Positions 7,705 through 26,697 of a stretch of 33,391 nucleotides of DNA are shown in pieces. Positions within the stretch are counted from its first letter, which is position 1. Every line of letters begins with the position of its first letter. The position numbers and the translations under genes were made by a program. The DNA is from an uncultured Lachnospiraceae bacterium (GTDB lineage Bacteria > Bacillota > Clostridia > Lachnospirales > Lachnospiraceae): contig CAMOGQ010000026.1 of the NCBI GenBank assembly GCA_946614165.1, positions 1-33,391 of the forward strand. The letters are read 5' to 3'. The notes beneath the pieces were generated by a model that saw only the letters and a list, made by a program, of their open reading frames with translations, was not told the DNA's origin and ran no database searches.

Positions 7705-7796
7705 ATTATATGCATTCATATTTTTCTATACCTTATCATTGTATACTGCATTTGTATAATATATAATTTTGTCATATTTTCATAGTTTAAAACTAT
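7705..7796. promoter_or_regulatory. AT-rich divergent control region with LysR-type boxes
   Basis: Three dyads fit LysR sites: ATAC-N9-GTAT (7728-7744), ATAC-N7-GTAT (7743-7757) and ATAGTTTAAAACTAT (7782-7796); the last two obey the T-N11-A rule. On the minus strand TATAAT (7705-7710) has no good -35, as expected for an activated promoter, and the second box would be centred near -52. On the plus strand TTGTAT (7739-7744) and TATAAT (7762-7767) could drive the lysR gene, and a box overlaps them, which allows autoregulation. Confidence 0.5.
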
Positions 7797-7861: not shown

Positions 7862-8854
7862 GTGAACTGGAACCAGCTGCAGTATATCGTGACCACCGCC
7901 CAGGAAGGGTCCGTCACCAGGGCCGCCGCCAGGCTCTTCATTTCCCAGCCCTCCCTGACCCTCAGCATCCAGAACCTGGAAAAGGAGCTGGGCATAAAGA
8001 TCTTCGAAAAAAGAAAGGGAGCCCTTTCCCTCACCTACGCAGGCCGCCTTTACTACGACTGGGCTCTCAACACCCTCCATTCCCGGGACCTTCTGGAAGC
8101 AAGACTCGGGGATATCAAGGAGGAAAAGAGCCATCAGATCCGTCTGGGCATCAGCCCCCACCGCAGCCGCATCCTCCTGCCGGCCATCCTGCCCCGCTTC
8201 TATGAAATCTTTCCGGCTTCCGAGATCCTTCTGGAGGAGCGCCCCACCTACCAGCTCCGGTCCTTGCTGGAGGAGGAAAAGCTGGACCTGATCATAGACG
8301 TCCCCCATCCGGACTCTCTGAACTACCAGAACATCCTTCTGGCCCAGGAACACCTGGTCCTGGCGGTTCCCGAGGTCTATTTAAAAAAGCTCCCGGAGAT
8401 CTCTCCGGAAGCTTCCATGGTCACAACGGACCCTGAGGATCAGGCGGGCGGGGCCGTGCCCATCCGGGCCTTCTCCTCTTTTCCTTTCTTTACTCTGGCA
8501 GAGCCCCAGAACCTTTCGGCCCTCTCCCGCCGGATCTACGAGGCGGCGGGTTTCCTGCCCCGGACCAGGCTGGTCTGCAGCAGCATCGAAACGGCCCTGG
8601 ATCTCTCCTCCAAGGGCCTGGGCATCGTTCTTGCTCCCGAGATCTACTCCCACTCCGACAGAGCCCCGGAGGGGATCCGTTTCTTCCATATGGCCCCCCG
8701 CATGGCGGACCGGCTGGACATGCGCCAGATCTGCCTCGTCCACCGCAAATCCCTCTACCTGCACGCGGGCCTGAAGACCCTGATCGGCCTCTTTATGGAA
8801 GCCGCGCCGCAGATCTACGGACAGGAAAGGCAGACGCCATCCCCCCGCTCCTGA
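7862..8854 (+). CDS. LysR family transcriptional regulator (LysR 1), divergent from chrA pair
   Basis: The 330-residue protein has a winged helix-turn-helix at residues 1-60 (VTRAAARLFISQPSLTLSIQNLEKELG) and a periplasmic-binding-like effector domain from about 90. The start is GTG with AAGGAG five bases upstream; no in-frame ATG with a better site precedes it. The gene diverges from the chromate-transporter pair over a gap with LysR-type boxes, so it probably controls that pair in response to a small ligand. Its 3' end converges on the sensor kinase gene, and no strong terminator was seen between them. Confidence 0.9.
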   Translation: MNWNQLQYIVTTAQEGSVTRAAARLFISQPSLTLSIQNLEKELGIKIFEKRKGALSLTYAGRLYYDWALNTLHSRDLLEARLGDIKEEKSHQIRLGISPHRSRILLPAILPRFYEIFPASEILLEERPTYQLRSLLEEEKLDLIIDVPHPDSLNYQNILLAQEHLVLAVPEVYLKKLPEISPEASMVTTDPEDQAGGAVPIRAFSSFPFFTLAEPQNLSALSRRIYEAAGFLPRTRLVCSSIETALDLSSKGLGIVLAPEIYSHSDRAPEGIRFFHMAPRMADRLDMRQICLVHRKSLYLHAGLKTLIGLFMEAAPQIYGQERQTPSPRS

Positions 8855-11942: not shown

Positions 11943-13244
11943 TTATACAGGGATGATTCCCACGATGACGCAGAGGATCACAGTGATCACGCTGATCAGG
12001 AAGTAGGGCGGGATGCTGAACTTCATGTGGTCCTTGAGCTCTGTACCGGTCAGACCGATGGCCAGGAAGGTAGCGGGAACCAGAGGGCTGACCATCAAAG
12101 CCAGGTTCTTGCCGATGATCATGGCCACTGCTGTGCTCAGGGAAGCCACGCCGTAGGTCTCGCCTACCTGCATGACCAGAGGCATGATGCCGTAGAAGTA
12201 AGCGTCGGTTCCTACGCAGAGGCCCAGAGGCAGGGCCAGGATGCCGAAGATGACGTGGATGAACTTGCCCAGGGCGGCGGGGATGATGCCCATGATGGCG
12301 TTTGCCATTTCTGTCAGCATGCCGGTTCCGTCAAAGACGCCCACCATGGCGCCTGCGGCAAAGAGGGTGGCGGAAATGATCAGGGCTGCGGGGGCGTGCT
12401 TCTTGATCAGCTTGTCCTGAAGCTTCTGGTCGGGATAGTTGACTGCCAGAAGGATGCAGAGGGCGGCCATGAATACCACGTAGCTGGGAGCCAGGCCCGC
12501 GGACAGGATGGCGATGACTGCGACGGTAAGGATCAGGTCGAATGCAAGCAGAGGACCGTGCTTTCTGAGGGCGTCCGCTTCGGCGGCTGCCTTCTGGTCG
12601 ACTTCCACTTCTTCGCCTGCACCCTTGCCTGCGCCGGCCTTAACGGCCATCATGCCCAGGATGACTGCCAGGACGATGTCCAGGACAAGGCCCATGATCT
12701 GAACGGGAATGAGGATGTGCCAGAGATCGTTGGCGTCCATTCCCAGAACGGTGGCCGCTCTGGCTGTGGGGCCGCCCCAGGGGAGCAGGTTCATGACGCC
12801 CATGCAGGCACCGGTGATGCAAAGCAGGATCTTTGGATCGATCTTCATTCTCTTATAAACGGGATAAAGAGCGGGGATGGTGATCAGGACGGTGGTGGCT
12901 GTGGTGCCGTCCAGGTGGGCGATGGTAGCGATGATGGCGGTGGCCACGGTCACGGCGATGACATTGCTGCCTGCCTTTTTGACCAGCCAGTCCACGATGA
13001 TGTCAAAGAGGCCCGTATCGGACAGGACGCCGAAATAGATGACCGAAAAGATAAACAGTATACCGTTGCTGGTGGTGGTGGTGACGCCCTCCTTGATCAT
13101 GCCGGCCACCTCCACGGGACCGTGTCCCAGGATCAGGGCCGCGATGGCGGGAACGACTACGAGTACGACGATGGGCGACATCTTTCCTTTAAGAAGAAGC
13201 GCCACGATCACGATGATCATGATAAAGCCTACTGCTGCAACCAT
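11943..13244 (-). CDS. CitMHS family citrate/metal (H+ or Na+) symporter
   Basis: The 433-residue membrane protein has about 12 helices, the normal CitMHS length. Characteristic stretches are SDTGLFDIIVDWLVKK, AHLDGTTATTVLITIPALYPVYKR and NLLPWGGPTARAATVLG; a charged loop near 205-230 splits two halves. CitM and CitH of Bacillus import citrate as a complex with Mg2+ or Ca2+. The start is ATG after GAGGAGG. It lies between the PrpF-type gene and the two-component operon, all on one strand, each with its own control region. In Bacillus a citrate-sensing two-component system switches on citM, and the arrangement here is parallel although the regulator type differs. The substrate could also be another tricarboxylate. 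Confidence 0.9.
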   Translation of the reverse strand: MVAAVGFIMIIVIVALLLKGKMSPIVVLVVVPAIAALILGHGPVEVAGMIKEGVTTTTSNGILFIFSVIYFGVLSDTGLFDIIVDWLVKKAGSNVIAVTVATAIIATIAHLDGTTATTVLITIPALYPVYKRMKIDPKILLCITGACMGVMNLLPWGGPTARAATVLGMDANDLWHILIPVQIMGLVLDIVLAVILGMMAVKAGAGKGAGEEVEVDQKAAAEADALRKHGPLLAFDLILTVAVIAILSAGLAPSYVVFMAALCILLAVNYPDQKLQDKLIKKHAPAALIISATLFAAGAMVGVFDGTGMLTEMANAIMGIIPAALGKFIHVIFGILALPLGLCVGTDAYFYGIMPLVMQVGETYGVASLSTAVAMIIGKNLALMVSPLVPATFLAIGLTGTELKDHMKFSIPPYFLISVITVILCVIVGIIPV

Positions 13245-13446: not shown

Positions 13447-14583
13447 TTATCTGCGGATGTAGATGGTGCCTTCCATGATCCTTCTGGCAGTCCTCTGTAC
13501 GGCTACGCCGGGGACCTTCACTTCCTCTCCCTCTTTCACGATGGTGGGGACCATGGTCATGACGCCGCTGGGATGTCCGATCCTGACGGTCTCTCTGCCG
13601 GGTGCGCCCAGGACCTTCTGAAGAAGAGAGCCTTCCAGGAAAGCCGCTACGGAAATGGAACTGGCGGATGTCAGAGGACAGGCCTTATGGCACTTGAATA
13701 CGGATATGACGCGGGCGCATACGTCCATGTCTTCTGCTTTTGTTTCTCCGCCTTCGATATCCCTGTAGGAGGCAGGCTTTGTAAAGAAACCCACCTTGGG
13801 AACTGCGGGCTGGTTGTCGGTGGCATCCTTCAGATCAGAGGCAAAGCCCATCTTCACGCAGGCCGTGCCCCGGATCTTCTCCAGCAGGTCGCAGACCTCT
13901 TTATTTCCGTTGATCTCTTCGGGAAGCTCCGTGCCCTTCATGCCTATATCCTCCGCCCTGACCAGGACAATGGGATTGGATACGTCCAGGATGGTGGCTT
14001 CGATGGGACCGTGGCCGGGAATGTCCAGAAGATCCAGCGTATTTCCCGTAGGAAGGAGCTTTCCTGTCTTGGAGCCTGCGGGGTTCAGGAAATTGACCTT
14101 AAGCTCGGCTGCCGTGCCGTCCACGCCGGCGATATGGCAGTCGCCCTCCTGGGCAAAGGTGCCGGTCTCATGGTCGATGGGAACAGTCACGTCGATGTAC
14201 TTGTCGGTATTGCGGTTGAAAAGGTGAACATTGGTAACAGGCTCTTTGATGTCCACCAGGCCGCTCTCTACGGCGAAGGGACCGACCGCGGCGGTCATGT
14301 TGCCGCAGTTGGACTTGTAGTCGATCTGCTCCTTGCCCACGATGACCTGGCCTACCAGGTACTCTACGTCCACGCCTTCCATGTCGCTCTTCCAGACGAT
14401 GACGATCTTGTTGTTGGAGGATACGGTGCCGCCCATGCCGTCGATCTGCTTGGGATCGGGGCTTCCCATGACCTGAAGAAAAATGGAATCCCACTCAGCT
14501 CTGTCAGCGGGAAGATCCTCTTTTAAAAACATGCAGCCCTTGCTGGTGCCGCCTCTCATGAATACTGTTCTGAACTTTCTCAT
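13447..14583 (-). CDS. PrpF/GalD family isomerase (aconitate, methylaconitate or oxalomesaconate type)
   Basis: The 378-residue protein has the two-domain DapF-like fold of PrpF, which moves a C=C bond in unsaturated tricarboxylates. The N-terminal signature FMRGGTSKGCMF, Lys59 in SSNNK and Cys93 in SNCGNM match the residues used for proton transfer in PrpF. PLTSASSISVAAFLEG and RIGHPSGVM are also typical. Known activities in the family are 2-methylaconitate cis-trans isomerase, 4-oxalomesaconate tautomerase and E. coli YbhH; sequence alone does not choose. The start at ATG 14581-14583 is supported by GAGGAG and by a promoter upstream, which excludes a longer reading. Next to aconitase-like hydratases, it likely feeds them with the right double-bond isomer. 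Confidence 0.92.
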   Translation of the reverse strand: MRKFRTVFMRGGTSKGCMFLKEDLPADRAEWDSIFLQVMGSPDPKQIDGMGGTVSSNNKIVIVWKSDMEGVDVEYLVGQVIVGKEQIDYKSNCGNMTAAVGPFAVESGLVDIKEPVTNVHLFNRNTDKYIDVTVPIDHETGTFAQEGDCHIAGVDGTAAELKVNFLNPAGSKTGKLLPTGNTLDLLDIPGHGPIEATILDVSNPIVLVRAEDIGMKGTELPEEINGNKEVCDLLEKIRGTACVKMGFASDLKDATDNQPAVPKVGFFTKPASYRDIEGGETKAEDMDVCARVISVFKCHKACPLTSASSISVAAFLEGSLLQKVLGAPGRETVRIGHPSGVMTMVPTIVKEGEEVKVPGVAVQRTARRIMEGTIYIRR

Positions 14584-14661
14584 AGTATGCTCCTCTTCTG
14601 ATCCTGTCAGCTGATCAGCCTGCTTCGCGGCCCTGCTGCCCAAATTCTGCTTTCCTTGTTC

Positions 14662-14879: not shown

Positions 14880-17180
14880 TTATTTCTTCCTTTTGTTCCG
14901 GTTAAAGTTGATCAGGCACCCGGCCTTTACGATCTCTCTCTCATTCTTTGTCATATCCATGATGTAGAGATCGATCTGCTCAGCCTTTCCATCCTTTACC
15001 ACGTAGGCCTTGATGTCTGACAGATCGCCGTCCAGGGCCTTTCTGATGCCGGGTACATAGATGTAGTCGCCTACTTCAAAGGCATCGGGCTCGCCCTTGA
15101 GATGGAAGGGGATCATGCCCCAGTTCATGACGTTGGAGCGGTAGCGCTTGGTGGCATACTCCTTGGTAATGTTGGCCAGACCGCCGATCACTCTCTGGCA
15201 GGAAGCTGCCTGCTCGCGGGCGGAACCGTCGCCGGGCTTGTTGGCGTATACCATGGATCCGATCTCGATGTCCTGTACATTGACATCCTCGGAGCCGGGA
15301 ATGGTGTTGATTACCCTGTAGACATCCGCAAGGGCGGGATCCTTTTCCACTGCGCTGCCGCCGGATACGCGGACTCTCTCAGTCTGGTCCACAGCCTTGG
15401 AACGGCCTACATATTCGGGATCTCTTCTGGACAGAGTGAACTCTGCCAGGCCCAGAGGGTTGGATCTGTAGGAGGAAGTCTCACCGGAAGGAATCAGTTC
15501 GTCAGTGGTGGTGACTTCATCCAGGATCTTGGAGCAGACCTTTAAGAGGATGTTGTCGGCCAGGGGTTCCAGTTCGGGCCAGGGCTTGATGTTGGGACCG
15601 TCAAAGAGGGAGACCTCAGGCTGGGCCTTGCCGAATCCCTGGTAGACGCGGGCCCTGTAAACGGTATCGTCATAGTCGTGCTCAGGCACATTGCCCCATA
15701 CGTCGTACTCGGCCGCGGAGGTAAGAAGGCCGCCGTTTGCTGCGGTAGCCGCGATGGAACGGGCGTCCATAAGGGCCGCTGCCGCCATCTGGCCGTTGCC
15801 GGGCTTGGAACCTTCTCTGTTGGGGAAGTTCCTGGTGGTGTGGCGGATGGACAGGCCGTTGTGCATGGGCGTGTCGCCGGCACCGAAGCAGGGGCCGCAG
15901 AAGGCTGTCTTGACGATGGCGCCTGCCGTCATCAGGTCTGCGATGTAGCCCTTTCTTGCCAGGTCGATGAATACGGGCTGGGAAGAAGGATAAACGTCAA
16001 GGGAGAATTCGCCGGCGCCGCAGCTTCTTCCGCGGAGCATGTTGGCTGCTTCCACCACGTTGGTGTAGTTGCCGCCTGCGCAGCCTGCGATGATGCCCTG
16101 CTGGACCTGGAGCTTTCCGTCTCTGATCTTGTCAAGAAGAGTGAAGTTCGCTCTTCCGTCTGCGATACGGGCGGCTTCCACTTCCACAGTATGAAGGATA
16201 TCTTCCAGGTTGGCGTTCAGCTCGTCAATCTCATAGGTGTTGGAGGGATGGAAAGGCAGAGCGATCATGGGCTTTACGGTGGAAAGGTCTACGTAGACGC
16301 AGCCGTCGTAGTAGGCTACATCCGCGGGATCCAGCTTCCTGTAATCCTGAGGTCTGCCGTGGCTTACCAGGAACTTCTGGGTATCCTCGTCGGTTCTCCA
16401 GATGGAGGACAGGCAGGTGGTCTCTGTGGTCATAACGTCGATGCCGTTGCGGTAATCGGTGGTCATCTCGGAGATGCCGGGGCCAACGAATTCCATGACC
16501 TTATTCTTGACATAACCCTTTTTGAAGACAGCGCCGATGATGGCCAGGGCGATGTCCTGAGGTCCCACGTAAGGAGCAGGCTTTCCGTCCAGGTAGACAG
16601 CTACAACGCCGGGATAAGCTACGTCATAGGTATCCCTGAGCAGCTGCTTGCCCAGCTCTCCGCCGCCTTCGCCGATGGCCATGGTGCCCAGAGCGCCGTA
16701 ACGGGTGTGGGAGTCGGAGCCCAGGATCATCTTTCCGCAGCCGGCCATGGTCTCGCGCATGTACTGATGGATGACGCCGATGTGGGGAGGAACATAGATT
16801 CCGCCGTATTTTTTAGCGGCGGAAAGGCCGAACATGTGATCATCTTCATTGATGGTGCCGCCTACCGCGCACAGGGAGTTGTGGCAGTTGGTCAGAACAT
16901 AGGGCAGAGGGAACTCTTCCATGCCGGAAGCTCTGGCTGTCTGGATGATACCTACGAAGGTAATGTCGTGGGAAGTCATGGCGTCGAAACGGATGCGAAG
17001 GTTGTCCATGGACTCCGCTGTGTTGTGGGCCTTCATGATGGAATAGGCGATGGTGCCCTTTTTTGCCTCTGCAGGGGCAGCGCTCTTTCCAGTCATCTGT
17101 TCCACTCTGGCTGCCTCAGCCTCGGGAACGATCTCTGTGCCGTTTACAAGGTATACGCCGCTGTCATAAAGTCTGACCAT
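14880..17180 (-). CDS. Aconitase-superfamily hydratase 1 (YbhJ-like)
   Basis: The 766-residue protein has the full aconitase domain order. [19 protein letters not shown] is the substrate-region loop. Iron-sulfur ligands are visible as [11 protein letters not shown] and the pair in FCGPCFG. The C-terminal swivel domain carries SSYRSNP and [10 protein letters not shown]. These are the [4Fe-4S] lyase/hydratase features, but the flanking words differ from true citrate aconitase (SCTNTSNP), so it belongs to the uncharacterised YbhJ-type hydratases. The start is ATG 17178-17180 with AAGGAG upstream. It is monocistronic, with a LysR-type bipartite operator 100 bases upstream. E. coli has a similar pairing of a PrpF-type protein (YbhH), a transporter and YbhJ. 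The exact substrate is unknown; a tri- or dicarboxylic hydroxy acid is expected. It has a paralogue at 18569-20806. Confidence 0.9.
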
Positions 17181-17258: not shown

Positions 17259-17287
17259 ATGATACCCTGGTCTTATCATAGAGTAAA
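17259..17287 (-). promoter_or_regulatory. Promoter of hydratase 1
   Basis: TTTACT (17282-17287) and TATCAT (17259-17264) on the minus strand are separated by 17 bases (4/6 and 5/6). The -35 box lies inside the 16-bp block shared with the 59-residue gene, whose promoter has the same layout. The expected leader is about 70 bases. Confidence 0.6.
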
Positions 17288-17325
17288 ATACATATCTGAT
17301 AATGTTAAATATAGATATTTTCTAT
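17276..17325 (-). promoter_or_regulatory. Bipartite LysR-type operator, copy A
   Basis: The block TCATAGAGTAAAATAC (17276-17291) is followed by the dyad ATAGATATTTTCTAT (17311-17325), an ATAG-N7-CTAT, T-N11-A site. The dyad would be centred near -66 and the block overlaps -35. An equivalent element with identical block and identical 33-base offset occurs at 26648-26697. Confidence 0.65.
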
Positions 17326-18568: not shown

Positions 18569-20806
18569 TTAATGTCCTTCCCTGTAGTAATTGATCAGGC
18601 ACCCGGCCCTCAGGATGGTCCGCTCGTCCTCTGTCAGGCTGTCCAGGGTGCAGGGGATCTTCCTGACGGTCAGAGCCTCCGGCCCCTCTTTTTCAAGCAC
18701 TTCTATAAGGGCCCTTACATCTCTTCCCTGTCCGTCCAGCAAAAGGGCCGTCACCTTCTCTTCTCCTCTTTCCAGGATGCCCGCCATATTCTCGATATAA
18801 ACAAAGCTTCCCAGAGGAATCTGCGGACTTTCCTCTGTTCTCAGGGGCACCAGGCCCCAGTTGATGCAGTTGGACCTGTAGCGTTTCGTGGAATACTCTC
18901 CCGCCAGATTGGCAAAGCCTCCCAGGACCTTCTGGCAGCTGGCAGCCTGCTCTCTGGAGGATCCGTCTCCGATCCGTTCCCCGGCCAGAAGGGTCCCAAG
19001 AGTGATGTCTCCTTCCTTTGAGAAGTTGATCCTGGCTGCCTCCTCTCTGATCTTTTTTGCCCTGGCCACATAGGCGGGGTCCCGGCTGATCAGGGTAAAT
19101 CCGGAGATCTTTTCGGGATTGGACCGGTAGGAGGAGGCTTCTCCCGAAGGGATCAGCTCGTCCGTGGTCACAGCCCCCTGATAGGACCCTGCCGTCACAA
19201 GGAGCAGGTTCTTTTTCATGGAGGCCATGCGGGGCCAGTCCGCGATGCCGGGGCCCATGACCAGCTTCTCCTTCGGGTCTGGCCTCCCGTATCTGTCCAG
19301 GACCTGCCTTTCATAGATGCCTCCCTCATAGGAAGGAGAAAAATCTCTGTATTCCACGTCCAGTTCCGTGGCGGCCGTAAGTGAGCCTCCGTTTCGGACA
19401 GTAGCCGCAATGGATCTGGCGTCCATGAGGCAGACCGCCGCCATCTGGCCCTGTCCTGGGCTGGATCCCTCACGGCAGGGATAGTTCCTGGTCACATGGC
19501 GGATGCTGAGCTGGTCGTTGGCAGGGGCATCGGTGACGCCGAAGCAGGGCCCGCAGATGGCGGGCCGCAGGGTCACCCCGGCCATGGCCAGCTCGGAAGC
19601 TGTGCCGGATCTGATCAGGTCCTCCATGACAGGGAGGCTGGAGGGATTGACGTGCAGGGAAAGGCCCTCCGCCTTCAGATCCGCCCCCTTAAGGATATCC
19701 GCTATGGCGGTTATGTTTTCCGTCATGCCGCCCGCGCAGCCGGATACCAGGGCCTGGTCGGGATAAAAGCCTCCCTCTCTCAGGTGGTGCATGATGGAGA
19801 AGGGCTTTCCCCGATTTCCCTTGATCTTTCTTCCCGCTTCCTCCACCTGCGAAAGGTATCTTTCCATATCTTCCTTAAAGACCCGGATGGGCAGGGCGTT
19901 GGATGGATGGAAGGGCAGAGCGATCATAGGCTCCACCAGGGAGAGGTCGATCTCGATCAGGCCGTCGTAGAGGGCACCGTTTTCGGGAGAGAGCTGCACA
20001 TAGTCCTCTTCCCTTCCGTGGTCTCTTAAATATTCCCAGGTCTTTTCATCCGTGCACCAGATGCTGGAGAGAGCCGCTGTTTCCGTGGTCATGACGTCGA
20101 TCCCCATGCGGTACTCCATGGACAGGTTTCCTATGCCCTCTCCCACGAACTCCAGGATCTTGTTTTTGTTGAAGCCGATGGGAAAAGTCTCTGCCGCCAT
20201 GGCAAGAGCCGCGTCCATGGGCCCTACTCCGGGCTTTGGCGCTCCCGTCAGCTTCACGGCGATTACAGGGGGACAGGCCATGTCATAGGTATGGCCCAGA
20301 AGCTGCTTGACCAGTTCTCCGCCCCCTTCCCCTATGCCCATGGTCCCCAGGGCTCCGTAGCGGGTATGGGAGTCGGACCCCAGGATCATCTTTCCGCCGC
20401 CGGCCATCCGCTCCCGCATATACTGGTGGAGGACTCCTCTGTAGGGAGGCAGAAAGATGCCTCCATAGTGCTTTACGGCAGAGAGGCCGAAGGCATGGTC
20501 GTCCTCAGACGTGGTTCCTCCCACCGAGCACAGAGTGTTGTGGCAGTTGGAAAGGACATAAGGGAGGGGAAAGGCCTCAAGGCCTGCCGCCCTGGCGCTC
20601 TGCAGGATGCTGACATAGTTGTTGTCCGGGGAGACCATGGCGTCGAAGCGGATCTTCAGATGCCGCATATCGCCGGAATGGTTGTGGGCTTTCAGGATCC
20701 TGTAAGCCATGGTGCCGGCCCTGCCGGCATAAGTGTCCTTTCCCTCCTCCGGAAGGATGTTTCCCCTCCCGTCCAGGTAAACGGGATGTGCTGTCAGTCT
20801 GATCAT
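18569..20806 (-). CDS. Aconitase-superfamily hydratase 2 (YbhJ-like)
   Basis: The 745-residue paralogue of hydratase 1 has the same domain order. It keeps [21 protein letters not shown], the cluster ligands VSGCAGG and ICGPCFG, LSIRHVTRNYPCREGSSPGQGQ, and the swivel-domain words SSYRSNP and DGSSREQAAS. Differences around the active site (for example GVTDAPANDQ against [10 protein letters not shown] in hydratase 1) suggest a different but related substrate. It starts at ATG with AAGGAGG five bases upstream. It is the third gene of the SorC operon, 72 bases after the RraA-type gene and three bases before the dehydrogenase. As an Fe-S enzyme it should be oxygen-sensitive, in keeping with an anaerobe. 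Confidence 0.9.
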   Translation of the reverse strand: MIRLTAHPVYLDGRGNILPEEGKDTYAGRAGTMAYRILKAHNHSGDMRHLKIRFDAMVSPDNNYVSILQSARAAGLEAFPLPYVLSNCHNTLCSVGGTTSEDDHAFGLSAVKHYGGIFLPPYRGVLHQYMRERMAGGGKMILGSDSHTRYGALGTMGIGEGGGELVKQLLGHTYDMACPPVIAVKLTGAPKPGVGPMDAALAMAAETFPIGFNKNKILEFVGEGIGNLSMEYRMGIDVMTTETAALSSIWCTDEKTWEYLRDHGREEDYVQLSPENGALYDGLIEIDLSLVEPMIALPFHPSNALPIRVFKEDMERYLSQVEEAGRKIKGNRGKPFSIMHHLREGGFYPDQALVSGCAGGMTENITAIADILKGADLKAEGLSLHVNPSSLPVMEDLIRSGTASELAMAGVTLRPAICGPCFGVTDAPANDQLSIRHVTRNYPCREGSSPGQGQMAAVCLMDARSIAATVRNGGSLTAATELDVEYRDFSPSYEGGIYERQVLDRYGRPDPKEKLVMGPGIADWPRMASMKKNLLLVTAGSYQGAVTTDELIPSGEASSYRSNPEKISGFTLISRDPAYVARAKKIREEAARINFSKEGDITLGTLLAGERIGDGSSREQAASCQKVLGGFANLAGEYSTKRYRSNCINWGLVPLRTEESPQIPLGSFVYIENMAGILERGEEKVTALLLDGQGRDVRALIEVLEKEGPEALTVRKIPCTLDSLTEDERTILRAGCLINYYREGH

Positions 20807-20878: not shown

Positions 20879-21499
20879 TTACATGGACTTCAGGATCCGG
20901 GGCATGACCTTTCCGGTCTCCTTCATGCGCCGGATGGTCTCCTCCTGCCGCCTTCTTTTGTCCAGGGCCCTTTCCATGACCTCTTCCGCCTCTCCGGGGC
21001 GGATGACCACGACTCCGTTGCGGTCACCTATGATCAGATCCCCGGGACTGACCGGGGCCCCTCCGCAGACCACAGGAGCGCCGATCCTGCCTTCTCCGCT
21101 CTTGCCGGCCGTCCCGGGGGTGATCCCACGGGCAAAAACGGGAAATCCCGCCTCCTCCAGGCCTTCGATATCCCTGCAGCAGCCGTCGATCACCACGGCC
21201 TCCGCCTTCATCATGGAGGCGCAGATGCTTCTGTGGTCTCCCCAGTAGGAGCAGGCGCAGTTTCCCTTACCGGCAATCACCAGGACGTCTCCCTCTTCCA
21301 GCTGCTCTATGGCATCCGCTATGATGCCGCCCTCTCCGGAAGGAACGTCCACGGTAAAGGCTCTGCCGCAGATCTTCTCCCTGCCTGCCCTGGGCCCGAT
21401 CTGATAGTCCATGGACCTGTAAAGCCCCATGCCGTCGCAGAGCTCCGGAGTAGTAAAACCTCTCAGTTTTTCGATCAGTTCTTTTTCGGTACTGTTCAT
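20879..21499 (-). CDS. RraA / 4-hydroxy-4-methyl-2-oxoglutarate aldolase family protein
   Basis: The 206-residue protein has the alpha-beta-beta-alpha fold family shared by RraA and class II HMG/CHA aldolases. Visible are YWGDHRSICASMM, the core VVIDGCCRDIEGLEEAGFPVFARG with the Arg-Asp used for substrate and metal binding, and GDLIIGDRNGVVVI. Family enzymes cleave 4-hydroxy-2-oxo acids to pyruvate plus a second 2-oxo acid; E. coli RraA is a non-catalytic RNase E inhibitor. The acidic residue usually two positions after Arg-Asp is Gly here, though a Glu lies one position earlier. The operon setting beside a hydratase and a 2-oxoacid reductase favours an aldolase or decarboxylase role. It starts at ATG after AAAGGA, 14 bases from the SorC gene. 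Confidence 0.85.
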   Translation of the reverse strand: MNSTEKELIEKLRGFTTPELCDGMGLYRSMDYQIGPRAGREKICGRAFTVDVPSGEGGIIADAIEQLEEGDVLVIAGKGNCACSYWGDHRSICASMMKAEAVVIDGCCRDIEGLEEAGFPVFARGITPGTAGKSGEGRIGAPVVCGGAPVSPGDLIIGDRNGVVVIRPGEAEEVMERALDKRRRQEETIRRMKETGKVMPRILKSM

Positions 21500-22574: not shown

Positions 22575-22818
22575 ATTCATAAAGGTTTTTCGCCATTCAT
22601 TTCGGGAATACTGAATTCATGCGTTAAAGCAAAAAAAATTTGTGCACCCTCCCTGCTTTTTTCCGCCGCCTCCCCCTGTCCTCCTGCTTCGGAAATCCTC
22701 TCTGTCTGCATTCTTTTTTGGAATATCGCTCTCCTGTTTCTTTATTGGCCCTGAAATAACCGGGGTGCTAAGGTATTTACAGATGCATCTGCTTTATTAT
22801 TTAATCAGGAGGAGAAAC

Positions 22819-24156
22819 ATGAACGAAAAAAACAATGAACGTACAGGTCTCTGGCTTGGCGGCATGCCCTGGTGGCTTACCGTGGCTGCAGTCCTGCTCT
22901 GCATGATTCCCGTATATATCATCCAGGGATCCGGAGAGGACGCTTCCATGGTTCAGTCCACAAGTATGGCAGGCTCCATGGCCATGTGCCTTGCTCTGGG
23001 CGTAGTATTTAATGAGCTGGGCGAACGTATTCCCATCTGGAACAAGTATATCGGCGGCGGTCTGCTGCTGAGCTTTTTTGGTGTCGCCATCATGCGCCAG
23101 TTCGGTCTGATCCCTCAGCTGGCTCTGGACGCCATCAACTCCTATGTATCCGATGACGCCAACTTCCTTGAATTCTTCATCATCATGCTGATCATCGGCT
23201 CCGTTCTGTCTCTGGACAGAGACATCCTCTTAAAGTCCTTCGCCGGCTACATTCCCGCCATTCTGGGCGGCCTTGTCTGTGCCATGATCATGGGCGTGGG
23301 CACGGGCTTCATCTTCGGTGTAAAGCCCGCTGACGCCATCATCAAGTACGTGCTTCCCATCATGGGCGGCGGCAACGGCGCAGGCGCAGTGCCCCTTTCC
23401 CAGATCTACGAACAGATCACGGGCGATCCGGCAGCCACCTACTATTCCTTCGCCATCATTATCCTGACCATCGCCAACCTTTTCTGTATCGTTGCCTCTG
23501 CGGCCCTCAACGCCCTGGGCGAAAAGGTACCTTCCCTGACAGGCGATAAGAAGACCCTGCTCCGTGCCGGCACCAACCTTGCAAGAGACGACGCCAAGAT
23601 CAAGACCGACAACGACGATCTCTTCGGCGCTCTTCTGCTGGCTATGGCCTGCTTCTCCGTGGGCCGTCTGATGAGCAAGGTGATCCTGCCCAAAATCGCA
23701 GGAGCTCCCATCCATCAGTATGCCTACATGATCATCTTCGTCGTGATCCTGGCCGCCACCGGCATTATCCCCGCCAGAGTCCGCGCAGGCGCTAAGCGCC
23801 TCCAGAACTTCTTCTCCGGCTACATGGGAATCGTCATCATGGTCGGCATGGGCGCAGACTTTGACCTGGGCGAGCTCTTTGCAGCCATCGCTCCCGGCAA
23901 CATCGTCATCGCTCTTATGATCGTCATCGGCGCCATCATCGGTTCCGGCGCTGTGGGCTATCTGGTAGGCTTCTATCCCATCGACTCTGCCATTACCGCC
24001 GGCCTCTGCATGGCAAACCGCGGTGGCAACGGCGACCTGGCATGCCTGGGTGCTGCAGACCGTATGGATCTGATCGCTTATGCCCAGCTGTCTTCCAGAC
24101 TTGGCGGCGGCATCGTACTGATCGTCGCTTCCTTCCTCTTCAGCTTCATGCTGTAA
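22819..24156 (+). CDS. 2-hydroxycarboxylate transporter (2HCT/CitS family)
   Basis: The 445-residue sodium- or exchange-coupled carrier for citrate, malate or lactate-like acids (CitS, CimH, MleP) has about 11 helices. The two family reentrant-loop motifs are present: GGGNGAGAVPLS near the middle and CMANRGGNGDLACLG near the end, both with Gly-Gly-Asn-Gly. SRLGGGIVLIVASFLFS closes the protein. The start at ATG 22819 is set by AGGAGGAG four bases upstream; a longer in-frame reading lacks such a site. It diverges from the SorC operon, so the operon enzymes probably use its substrate. No clear terminator follows; a 12-bp hairpin without U tail lies before the next gene. Confidence 0.93.
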   Translation: MNEKNNERTGLWLGGMPWWLTVAAVLLCMIPVYIIQGSGEDASMVQSTSMAGSMAMCLALGVVFNELGERIPIWNKYIGGGLLLSFFGVAIMRQFGLIPQLALDAINSYVSDDANFLEFFIIMLIIGSVLSLDRDILLKSFAGYIPAILGGLVCAMIMGVGTGFIFGVKPADAIIKYVLPIMGGGNGAGAVPLSQIYEQITGDPAATYYSFAIIILTIANLFCIVASAALNALGEKVPSLTGDKKTLLRAGTNLARDDAKIKTDNDDLFGALLLAMACFSVGRLMSKVILPKIAGAPIHQYAYMIIFVVILAATGIIPARVRAGAKRLQNFFSGYMGIVIMVGMGADFDLGELFAAIAPGNIVIALMIVIGAIIGSGAVGYLVGFYPIDSAITAGLCMANRGGNGDLACLGAADRMDLIAYAQLSSRLGGGIVLIVASFLFSFML

Positions 24157-25249: not shown

Positions 25250-26233
25250 TTAAGTTTCTTCCCTTCTTTCTTCCTTTCCGAAGACCTGTTTCATGGTGCC
25301 GATCAGGGCCCTTTCCGCCTGGTCCAGGTAGACATCCTCCCTGTAGACGGCGCTGACGTCCCAGGAGTCCTGGCTTTCTCCGTAAAGGAAGCAGTTGAAA
25401 CTGTCGTAGCCTCCCAGAACAATGATGGCTCTCTCGGGAGTAATGGTATAGCCCAGGCCGGCCCTGGCCAGCTGAACTGCCGAAATACAGTTGGCCACTT
25501 CCATGATCTCTTTGGGGAAGAAGCCAGCCTCACGGAAGATGTCTTCCATGCGCCTCCTGATAAAGGTGCCTTCCTTGACTATGATAAATGGCCTGTCCTT
25601 CAGGTTCTGCAGACGTACGACCGGCATGGGGATGCCGGCAGCCGACATGGCCTTCAGGGGCTTTCTGCCTTCCCCGGTCTCTTCCTGCACAAGGTCCTCT
25701 TCCCGGACCACGCCGTCTCCGGCTACCACATACAGATTTTCCCGGTAGATCCGCTCCACCTTCAGTCCGGGCGGCAGGTCCGATTTGTCTCCCGGCAGTA
25801 CGGCAAAGCCGATCTTGTCGATCAGAAGATTCCTTATGATCTCGGAGGACCTGGATTCCTGAAGGCGGATCTCCATGTTGGGGTACTGCTGTCTGAACAG
25901 GGGCATGACCCTGGAGAGCATGTAGCCGGCCCTTTCGTTGGGAATACCGATATTGATCCGGCCCTTCTTCCCGTGGCCTATGTCCGTCAGCTCCCTTCGC
26001 ATGTTGTCGCGGATCCTGAGGATCTCCCTGGCATGTTCCACATAGATCTCTCCCGCATAGGTCAGGGACAGAGGATTAGTCTTCCTGTCAAAGAGCCTGA
26101 CGCCCAGGTCCTGCTCCACCTTGGAAATGATATAGGAGAGGGAGGGCTGGGAAATATAAAGCCTTTTGGCCGCCTCTGTCACGCTTCTCTCCTCAGCCAC
26201 TGCCGTAATATAAGTCAGTTCGCGAAAATCCAT
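25250..26233 (-). CDS. LysR family transcriptional regulator (LysR 2)
   Basis: The 327-residue protein has an N-terminal helix-turn-helix (RSVTEAAKRLYISQPSLSYIISKVEQDLG, here described rather than quoted in full) at residues about 15-45, then an effector domain with RINIGIPNERAGYMLSRVMP and GLGYTITPERA. The start is ATG 26231-26233 with GGAGG eight bases upstream; a longer form from 26290 lacks a site. It lies 130 bases after a 59-residue gene on the same strand, with a terminator between. A bipartite LysR-type element sits upstream of that small gene and another one upstream of hydratase 1, which makes this regulator the best candidate for both. By analogy with CcpC it may sense citrate or a related acid. 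Confidence 0.9.
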   Translation of the reverse strand: MDFRELTYITAVAEERSVTEAAKRLYISQPSLSYIISKVEQDLGVRLFDRKTNPLSLTYAGEIYVEHAREILRIRDNMRRELTDIGHGKKGRINIGIPNERAGYMLSRVMPLFRQQYPNMEIRLQESRSSEIIRNLLIDKIGFAVLPGDKSDLPPGLKVERIYRENLYVVAGDGVVREEDLVQEETGEGRKPLKAMSAAGIPMPVVRLQNLKDRPFIIVKEGTFIRRRMEDIFREAGFFPKEIMEVANCISAVQLARAGLGYTITPERAIIVLGGYDSFNCFLYGESQDSWDVSAVYREDVYLDQAERALIGTMKQVFGKEERREET

Positions 26234-26301: not shown

Positions 26302-26342
26302 TAAAAAGCGCTGCACGGAGATTTTGCCTCCGCTGCAGCGCT
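26302..26342 (-). terminator. Terminator of the 59-residue gene
   Basis: AGCGCTGCACGGAG and CTCCGCTGCAGCGCT pair over 14 positions with one bulge (26307-26342). UUUUUAUG follows on the minus strand. It begins 20 bases after the stop of the small gene, which supports that gene being real. Confidence 0.8.
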
Positions 26343-26362
26343 CTGCTCTTTATCTTTCTGTA

Positions 26363-26542
26363 TTATGCCTGTTCGATATAATCGTCGATCACCTGGAAGT
26401 CGGCTCTTTCTCTTTTCTTTTCGAGGCTCCTGTCATAGGCCTCTCTTCCGGGTACATACTGCCTCTGGGTGACGCTTCTGCCGAAAATGTTCCTGTAGAT
26501 GTTTTCAGGTCTTCTGTTTCTCATCTTCCTTGTCTCAGTCAT
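26363..26542 (-). CDS. Small basic protein of unknown function (59 residues)
   Basis: ATG 26540-26542 to TAA 26363-26365 gives 59 residues starting MTETRKMRNRRPENIYRNIF and ending DFQVIDDYIEQA. The first three quarters are rich in Arg and Lys, the end is acidic; there is no membrane segment and no Cys. The gene has every expected signal: AAAGGA eight bases before ATG, a promoter with -35 TTTACT and -10 TAAAAT, a bipartite LysR-type operator, and its own terminator. The operator and promoter match those of hydratase 1 in sequence and spacing, so it is probably switched on with that enzyme. It might be a small partner, adaptor or nucleic-acid-binding protein, but no family was recognised. Confidence 0.7.
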   Translation of the reverse strand: MTETRKMRNRRPENIYRNIFGRSVTQRQYVPGREAYDRSLEKKRERADFQVIDDYIEQA

Positions 26543-26630: not shown

Positions 26631-26659
26631 ATTTTAAGGCATTCTTTTCATAGAGTAAA
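26631..26659 (-). promoter_or_regulatory. Promoter of the 59-residue gene
   Basis: TTTACT (26654-26659) and TAAAAT (26631-26636) on the minus strand are 17 bases apart, the same -35 and spacing as at hydratase 1. The leader would be about 80 bases. Confidence 0.55.
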
Positions 26660-26697
26660 ATACCCGAAATCGTATGTTTCTCATAGAAATATTCTAT
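26648..26697 (-). promoter_or_regulatory. Bipartite LysR-type operator, copy B
   Basis: TCATAGAGTAAAATAC (26648-26663) is identical to copy A, and ATAGAAATATTCTAT (26683-26697) is the matching ATAG-N7-CTAT dyad. The offset between the parts, 33 bases, is the same as in copy A. The remaining 200 bases up to the DUF2089 gene hold only the promoter of that gene. Confidence 0.65.

Follow-up and report, generated by a model that had tools for sequence, protein, structure and literature searches.

Conserved two-part LysR-type operators and a predicted tricarboxylate regulon linking an aconitase-family hydratase with an undescribed small protein in Lachnospiraceae

Two sites, A and B, in the genome of an uncultured Lachnospiraceae bacterium are very probably conserved two-part LysR-type operators with likely promoters, through which the LysR protein LysR 2 is predicted to control an aconitase-family hydratase (hydratase 1) and a 59-residue protein (p59) within a regulon for tricarboxylate (citrate/aconitate) catabolism. 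Both sites lie in the window, the whole stretch of 33,391 nucleotides that was analysed (GCA_946614165.1, contig CAMOGQ010000026.1, positions 1-33,391, forward strand). This makes available a testable regulon, consisting of regulator, operator, promoter geometry and targets, for the use of citrate/aconitate-type acids in Lachnospiraceae. The new part is a family of small proteins linked to aconitases. A search of the literature brought up neither this regulon nor p59.

Read on the minus strand, both sites show the same succession: an ATAG-N7-CTAT dyad, AACAT, GTATTTTACTCTAT (which contains the -35 box TTTACT), a 17-base spacer and a -10 box. Their parts are located as follows.

Element A, 17278..17325, minus strand: dyad 17311-17325, AACAT 17302-17306, TATTTTACTCTAT block 17278-17290
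Promoter A, 17259..17287, minus strand: -35 TTTACT 17282-17287, 17-base spacer, -10 TATCAT 17259-17264
Element B, 26650..26697, minus strand: dyad 26683-26697, AACAT 26674-26678, TATTTTACTCTAT block 26650-26662
Promoter B, 26631..26659, minus strand: -35 TTTACT 26654-26659, 17-base spacer, -10 TAAAAT 26631-26636

The initial annotation had placed one 16-base block at 17276-17291 and again at 26648-26663, with a dyad beginning 33 bases past the block's ATAG, AACAT at an equal offset in both copies and a minus-strand promoter with the dyad near -66. Its coordinates are right: TCATAGAGTAAAATAC is the same at both positions, the 33-base offset and the place of AACAT hold at A and at B, and the promoter boxes are present at both, with the dyad centre near -66 relative to the predicted start. 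LysR-type operators have a dyad with a T-N11-A core near -65 and a second site near -35. A and B, with starts as predicted, fit this layout of a dyad plus a second site. Their proposed reading as a LysR recognition site and an activation site is supported, and the layout tracks LysR 2 across genomes.

The genes and further features around the two sites are the following.

CitMHS citrate:proton symporter family, 11943..13244, minus strand: 304 bits, cut-off 259.7
PrpF-family isomerase, 13447..14586, minus strand: Pfam PrpF
Hydratase 1, 14880..17180, minus strand: aconitase superfamily, NF008503 'hydratase', 1371 bits, cut-off 641
Hydratase 2, 18569..20806, minus strand: aconitase superfamily, NF008503, 922 bits
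RraA/aldolase-family protein, 20879..21499, minus strand: homologs with element in G392, G396 and G063
2HCT-family (2-hydroxycarboxylate) transporter, 22816..24156, plus strand: homolog with element in G395
LysR 2, 25250..26233, minus strand: predicted regulator of elements A and B
Hairpin followed by T5, 26306..26343, minus strand: between p59 and LysR 2, -27.6 kcal/mol, z -4.74
p59, 26363..26542, minus strand: 59-residue protein, C terminus DDYIEQA
LysR 1, 7862-8854: LysR protein

Hydratase 1 starts at 17180 behind an AAAGGAG site. For hydratase 2 no element of its own was seen in the window; homologs with the element are found at L065 and L069/G388. The PrpF-family isomerase scores below both NCBIfam cut-offs, the related models being 4-oxalomesaconate tautomerase and methylaconitate isomerase. 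A 2-dehydropantoate-reductase-family gene is also nearby. A consensus scan did not list the hairpin behind p59; by its sequence it is likely an intrinsic terminator. Since this strong hairpin with its T run follows p59 and separates it from LysR 2, p59 probably has its own short transcript and is probably the first gene that site B serves, with LysR 2 reached by read-through if at all. Scanning the window for tRNAs and with Rfam gave no matches. Just past site B, a DUF2089-type HTH gene (PF09862; 26917-27216, plus strand) is transcribed away, out of an A+T-rich region.

Within the genus the element tracks LysR 2. Among 62 genomes, LysR 2 orthologs (at least 60% identity) are found in G000, G316 and G364, a fourth match at 36% being a paralog, and the element (20 fixed bases, at most two mismatches) occurs in exactly these three, with none for reversed-pattern controls. 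L063 lies in genome G316, and L072/G391 in G364; each was counted once. The co-occurrence gives a Fisher value of 2.6e-5, an overstatement because G000 and G316 are near-identical and the genomes are related. In none of the 13 genomes that lack LysR 2 and have a hydratase 1 match of at least 80%, among 37 draft assemblies of the same genus, was the element present. Lack of conservation before homologous genes had been named as the point that would speak against a common regulon; the element is kept before hydratase 1 homologs in LysR 2 genomes. In G364, a p59 homolog lies directly upstream of hydratase 1, with one copy of the element before both, which supports the suggested regulon of a regulator, an Fe-S hydratase and a small protein, with LysR 2 as its presumed binder.

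A contig search with LysR 2 yielded 34 loci, among which 17 (L063-L079) have at least 47% identity, and from these a set of 17 genomes was formed, the window's own and those of L064 to L079. Among the genomes with LysR 2 loci are Oribacterium strains, an assembly from roe-deer omasum, and RUG assemblies, which by their name we take to be of rumen origin. A relaxed element, ATAG N6-7 NTAT N20-22 TATTTTACT, was found at 23 places in 13 of the 17 genomes, against a single place for the reversed-pattern control. Eight of the 23 places were known when the relaxed pattern was designed; 15 are new. The initial annotation had suggested listing the genes downstream of the element in related genomes. 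Tricarboxylate genes or p59 lie behind 20 of the 23 places; the target is unclear at one (G394) and unrelated at two (G384). The first recognisable downstream gene is hydratase 1 at eight places, citD-citE at six, p59 and an RraA-type gene at two each, and hydratase 2 and a 2HCT gene at one each. The new places give the same picture, 13 of 15 standing before such genes (hydratase 1 six, citDE six, 2HCT one). In six genomes of the Oribacterium group the element occurs as a pair with about 2.7 kb between the copies; hydratase 1 lies behind one copy and citDE behind the other. One Oribacterium-group operon was examined, the cit operon of G384 (L160): citDE is followed by citF (687 bits, cut-off 501) and then citX (174, cut-off 105), citE scores 373 bits, below its cut-off of 443, and citD was named from its sequence. 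No exact relaxed element is present in the genomes of L064, L074, L078 and L079 (4 of 17); L074 and L079 have degraded versions in place. The predicted regulon is well supported by these comparisons; it is broader than first proposed and concerns tricarboxylate catabolism. A search of the window's genome (assembly 87.65% complete) found no CitF. The citrate lyase branch, which the Oribacterium group, G033 and G364 have, was therefore not found there.

LysR 2 has the domains HTH_1 and LysR_substrate, and its clade has a support of 97/99 in a tree with long-branch warnings. The element, the promoter-like boxes with their spacing, their conservation and the genes behind the element are plain in the DNA; from them we infer LysR 2 as the binding protein, the direction of its control and a carboxylate effector. 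Related LysR proteins (LysR 1 and that of G421) are found beside the same kind of element, and for this reason LysR 2 stands as the predicted binder. That one of these other LysR proteins of the same broad group, LysR 1 or one of LysR 3 type, binds A and B in place of LysR 2 is unlikely. LysR 1 does have a similarly built element (7782-7796), but it belongs to another clade, whose member in G232 carries an element variant of its own before a ChrA-like gene. A LysR 3-type gene, of another clade, adjoins hydratase 1 and PrpF in G364, yet at E 1e-60 neither the window's genome nor G316 contains a match to LysR 3, and it is present in G376, which lacks both the element and LysR 2. Distant LysR genes adjoin hydratase 1 at Oscillospiraceae loci, and G421 pairs the element with a LysR protein only 31% like LysR 2; against this, the element directly adjoins LysR 2 in G063, L071 and L073 and lies inside the LysR 2 gene cluster in G119. 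LysR 2 remains the preferred regulator of A and B.

Concerning the relatives themselves, an ATAG-N7-CTAT dyad with a TATTATAC block lies at 7782-7796 of the window between LysR 1 and divergent genes, which from their sequence we take to be ChrA-like. The same dyad arrangement is found in G232 (L128) with a LysR 1 relative (45%) before a ChrA-like gene. LysR 1 probably controls ChrA-like genes via its own variant of the element. In G421 (L181:9660-9705), the element stands before hydratase 1, LysR and p59, the divergent LysR being 31% like LysR 2; related LysR proteins seem, from this locus, to share the operator.

Apart from the regulator, the likeness of A and B needs an explanation. The two copies of TCATAGAGTAAAATAC are its sole matches in the window at up to three mismatches, where shuffling leads one to expect 0.11. 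The composite of 18 fixed bases has two perfect matches in the window and none at up to three mismatches in 100 shuffles; in the whole 3.78-Mb assembly (87.65% complete) it is perfect at A and B only, the third match having three mismatches. Element A is also perfect in the near-identical genome G316/L063. Repeated 16-mers form seven groups in the window, several of them between paralogous genes, and the significance of the sites rests on their architecture, a 16-mer repeat by itself being not rare there. The identical 16-mer could also mean that A and B are one promoter recently duplicated, with no shared regulation, but this is very improbable: beyond the motif, identity is at chance level (5 of the 21 free positions within the element agree, as do 22 of 150 bases upstream and 47 of 150 downstream), and the architecture recurs before other genes in other genomes. 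Since flanks and free positions are unrelated, A and B are not a recent duplication, and selection is the better account of their likeness.

Background rates were estimated in 299 family genomes chosen regardless of LysR 2. Here the relaxed pattern matched at 25 places against about 36 for the control, which is background level, and 13 of the 23 non-own matches lie inside open frames of at least 170 codons. Two non-own matches turned out to be new LysR 2 loci, G119 (element, aconitase, LysR 2 at 53%) and G063 (LysR 2 at 49%, element, RraA). With the strict pattern, 61 of the 299 genomes match at two mismatches or fewer, and control matches are equally common; all matches but the two own sites carry one or two mismatches. 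Without LysR 2 as a guide this strict scan was of no use, and it was kept as background. A chance assembly of A+T-rich motifs and promoter boxes, which would agree with the control-level matches in arbitrary family genomes (25 places), is hardly credible for A and B in view of 0 of 100 shuffles matching, of 23 places against 1 in the LysR 2-homolog genomes and of coherent targets.

The anatomy of the element is regular. In 25 of 27 elements a -10-like hexamer (at least 4 of 6 matches) follows after a spacer of exactly 17 bases, with a mean score of 4.93 as against 3.33 at the next best offset; this set includes the LysR 1 site, which is among the two misses, as well as the near-twin L063, and is without the two unrelated G384 sites. 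In the free region there is a conserved C/T-A-T, whose A and T are found in 16 of 16 distinct N7-type elements, though unconstrained in the search pattern. The half-sites ATAG, CTAT, CAT, TAT and CTAT are spaced by 11, 9.5, 14 and 9.5 bases from centre to centre, mostly about one helical turn.

p59 is a member of an undescribed family of small proteins, as judged from its relatives. It is without a Pfam or NCBIfam match. Among about 5.8 billion proteins, 18 homologous entries were found (E 4e-34 to 3e-16), all of them small (53-92 residues) and ending in DY(I/V)E(Q/E)A; one, P0004, is the window's own protein with an inner start. Searched with a profile, 62 genomes of the genus and 397 of the family yielded eight small-ORF loci. 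Beyond the window and its near-twin G316, there are five loci, four found by profile alone, at which an intact p59 has an aconitase-family gene no more than about 1 kb away, and this linkage extends over four genera. In G364, first noticed beside the hydratase, p59 and then hydratase 1 are co-directional and about 50 bases apart, with the element upstream. G033 has citDE and, further on, hydratase 1 followed by p59, here a weak profile match (E 7e-4); G421 has the element, hydratase 1, LysR and p59 (E 1e-11); G037 has 2HCT, an aconitase-like gene and p59 (E 1e-5). On contig C95 of the window's own genome (L156:5103-5369), a 49-residue p59 paralog (E 3e-7) is divergent from a 665-residue aconitate hydratase, and between them lies a perfect ATAG-N7-CTAT dyad without the TATTTTAC block. 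In the window and G316, p59 adjoins LysR 2, and the element is what p59 and hydratase 1 have in common; in the window, about 5.6 kb separate p59 from the closest aconitase-family gene. Judged from gene neighbourhood only, p59 would, as a small protein, assist or modulate aconitase-family enzymes.

Some p59 candidates were set aside. A p59-like remnant without a start codon in G368 (L158:2753-2878) lies beside a thioesterase-like gene; as a remnant with no aconitase-family neighbour on its 4-kb contig, it was dropped from the neighbourhood count. Six of 11 p59-profile places were dropped as lying inside large open frames: two in ORFs of 589 and 350 codons and four (G480, G116, G083 and the window's own genome) in what we take from the sequence to be isoleucyl-tRNA synthetases. 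The profile matches one ungapped stretch of 44 residues in these synthetases (L180, L174, L175, L177), and hhalign of p59 against them gave 41% probability and E 3e-4 in a single comparison. The stretch is possibly the origin of p59, or else a chance likeness. p59 as a fragment of hydratase 1 was rejected, there being no significant similarity (best E 2.0). The predicted fold of p59 has two helices and a mean pLDDT of 57, which makes the model too poor for a fold search.

As the likely mechanism we propose that LysR 2 would bind as a tetramer. It would occupy the dyad around -66, the recognition site, together with the conserved CAT around -51 and the TATTTTACTCTAT region from about -38 to -26, the activation site; the half-site spacings of mostly about one helical turn could be read by such a tetramer. 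The activation site would cover, and sit just behind, the weak -35 box TTTACT, and a carboxylate effector would shift the downstream contact of LysR 2 so that RNA polymerase fires. Acids of the citrate/aconitate type would be handled by hydratase 1 jointly with the PrpF-type isomerase and the transporters. Tentatively, and with somewhat less than even confidence, p59 may found a new microprotein family that binds and tunes aconitase-family Fe-S hydratases, a tricarboxylate-sensing LysR protein driving the joint production of both through twin operators or, as in G364, through a single one. If so, anaerobic gut bacteria would place the fermentation of citrate and trans-aconitate under joint transcriptional and allosteric control. 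Since members of the p59 family are found with aconitase-family genes in four genera, two purified proteins would suffice to test its role.

Among known systems, the initial annotation had pointed to CcpC, the regulator of citB and citZ in Bacillus and Listeria, which according to PMC8514465 acts on the aconitase promoter of citB through a dyad centred at -66 and a half-dyad at -27 to -33. This parallel stands for the layout, a LysR protein with a dyad near -66 and a second part at about -38 to -26, and for the targets, aconitase-like hydratases and, in G119, an aconitate hydratase (NF005558, 842 bits, cut-off 612) with the element upstream and LysR 2 adjoining, known by its position alone. 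It does not extend to orthology. The CcpC model NF058504 has a cut-off of 400 bits, of which LysR 2 reaches 96, and A and B have ATAG/CTAT boxes in place of the ATAA/TTAT boxes given for CcpC in that source. Several of the citrate contacts listed there, I100 (backbone), S129, R147, S189, S191 and R260, are not kept: R147 is P in 18 of 19 LysR 2 sequences and I100 is E in 19 of 19, whereas S129 is S in 15 and T in 3 of 19; S189 and S191 align with E/K/R and G, in an alignment that is weak (5.9 bits), and R260 falls outside it. R101 and R226 of LysR 2 are invariant in 19 of 19 sequences and, as a guess, could bind carboxylates. LysR 2 would work like CcpC without being CcpC itself.

In Bacillus velezensis, according to passages of PMC11495376, the LysR protein TarR controls uptake and isomerisation of trans-aconitate through tarAB, and TarA is an aconitate isomerase of the PrpF superfamily. 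Unlike A and B, the TarR sites mutated there are TTATAA palindromes, the targets are the adjacent isomerase and importer, and these passages name neither a hydratase nor a small protein. Because TarA is a PrpF-superfamily aconitate isomerase under a LysR protein, the trans-aconitate/citrate route, with isomerase, hydratase and, where present, citrate lyase, appears the likeliest pathway here. E. coli has a comparable locus, ybhD-ybhHIJ, described in part of PMC9068703, where a LysR gene lies beside PrpF-type ybhH, the putative tricarboxylate transporter gene ybhI and the putative hydratase gene ybhJ, and where deletion of ybhD raised ybhH expression. No small protein is annotated at this E. 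coli locus, and YbhD forms a very long branch relative to LysR 2 in the tree with long-branch warnings. Passages of two further papers report that Acidaminococcus ferments trans-aconitate through citrate (PMC3035267) and that oxidation of trans-aconitate lowers tricarballylate, a toxic rumen end product (PMC5830445). For p59, the closest functional precedent is AcnSP of Synechocystis, a protein of 44 residues which, according to PMC7336809, alters Km and Vmax of aconitase. AcnSP resembles the aconitase N terminus, unlike p59 in its comparison with hydratase 1, and p59 would be its analogue in function.
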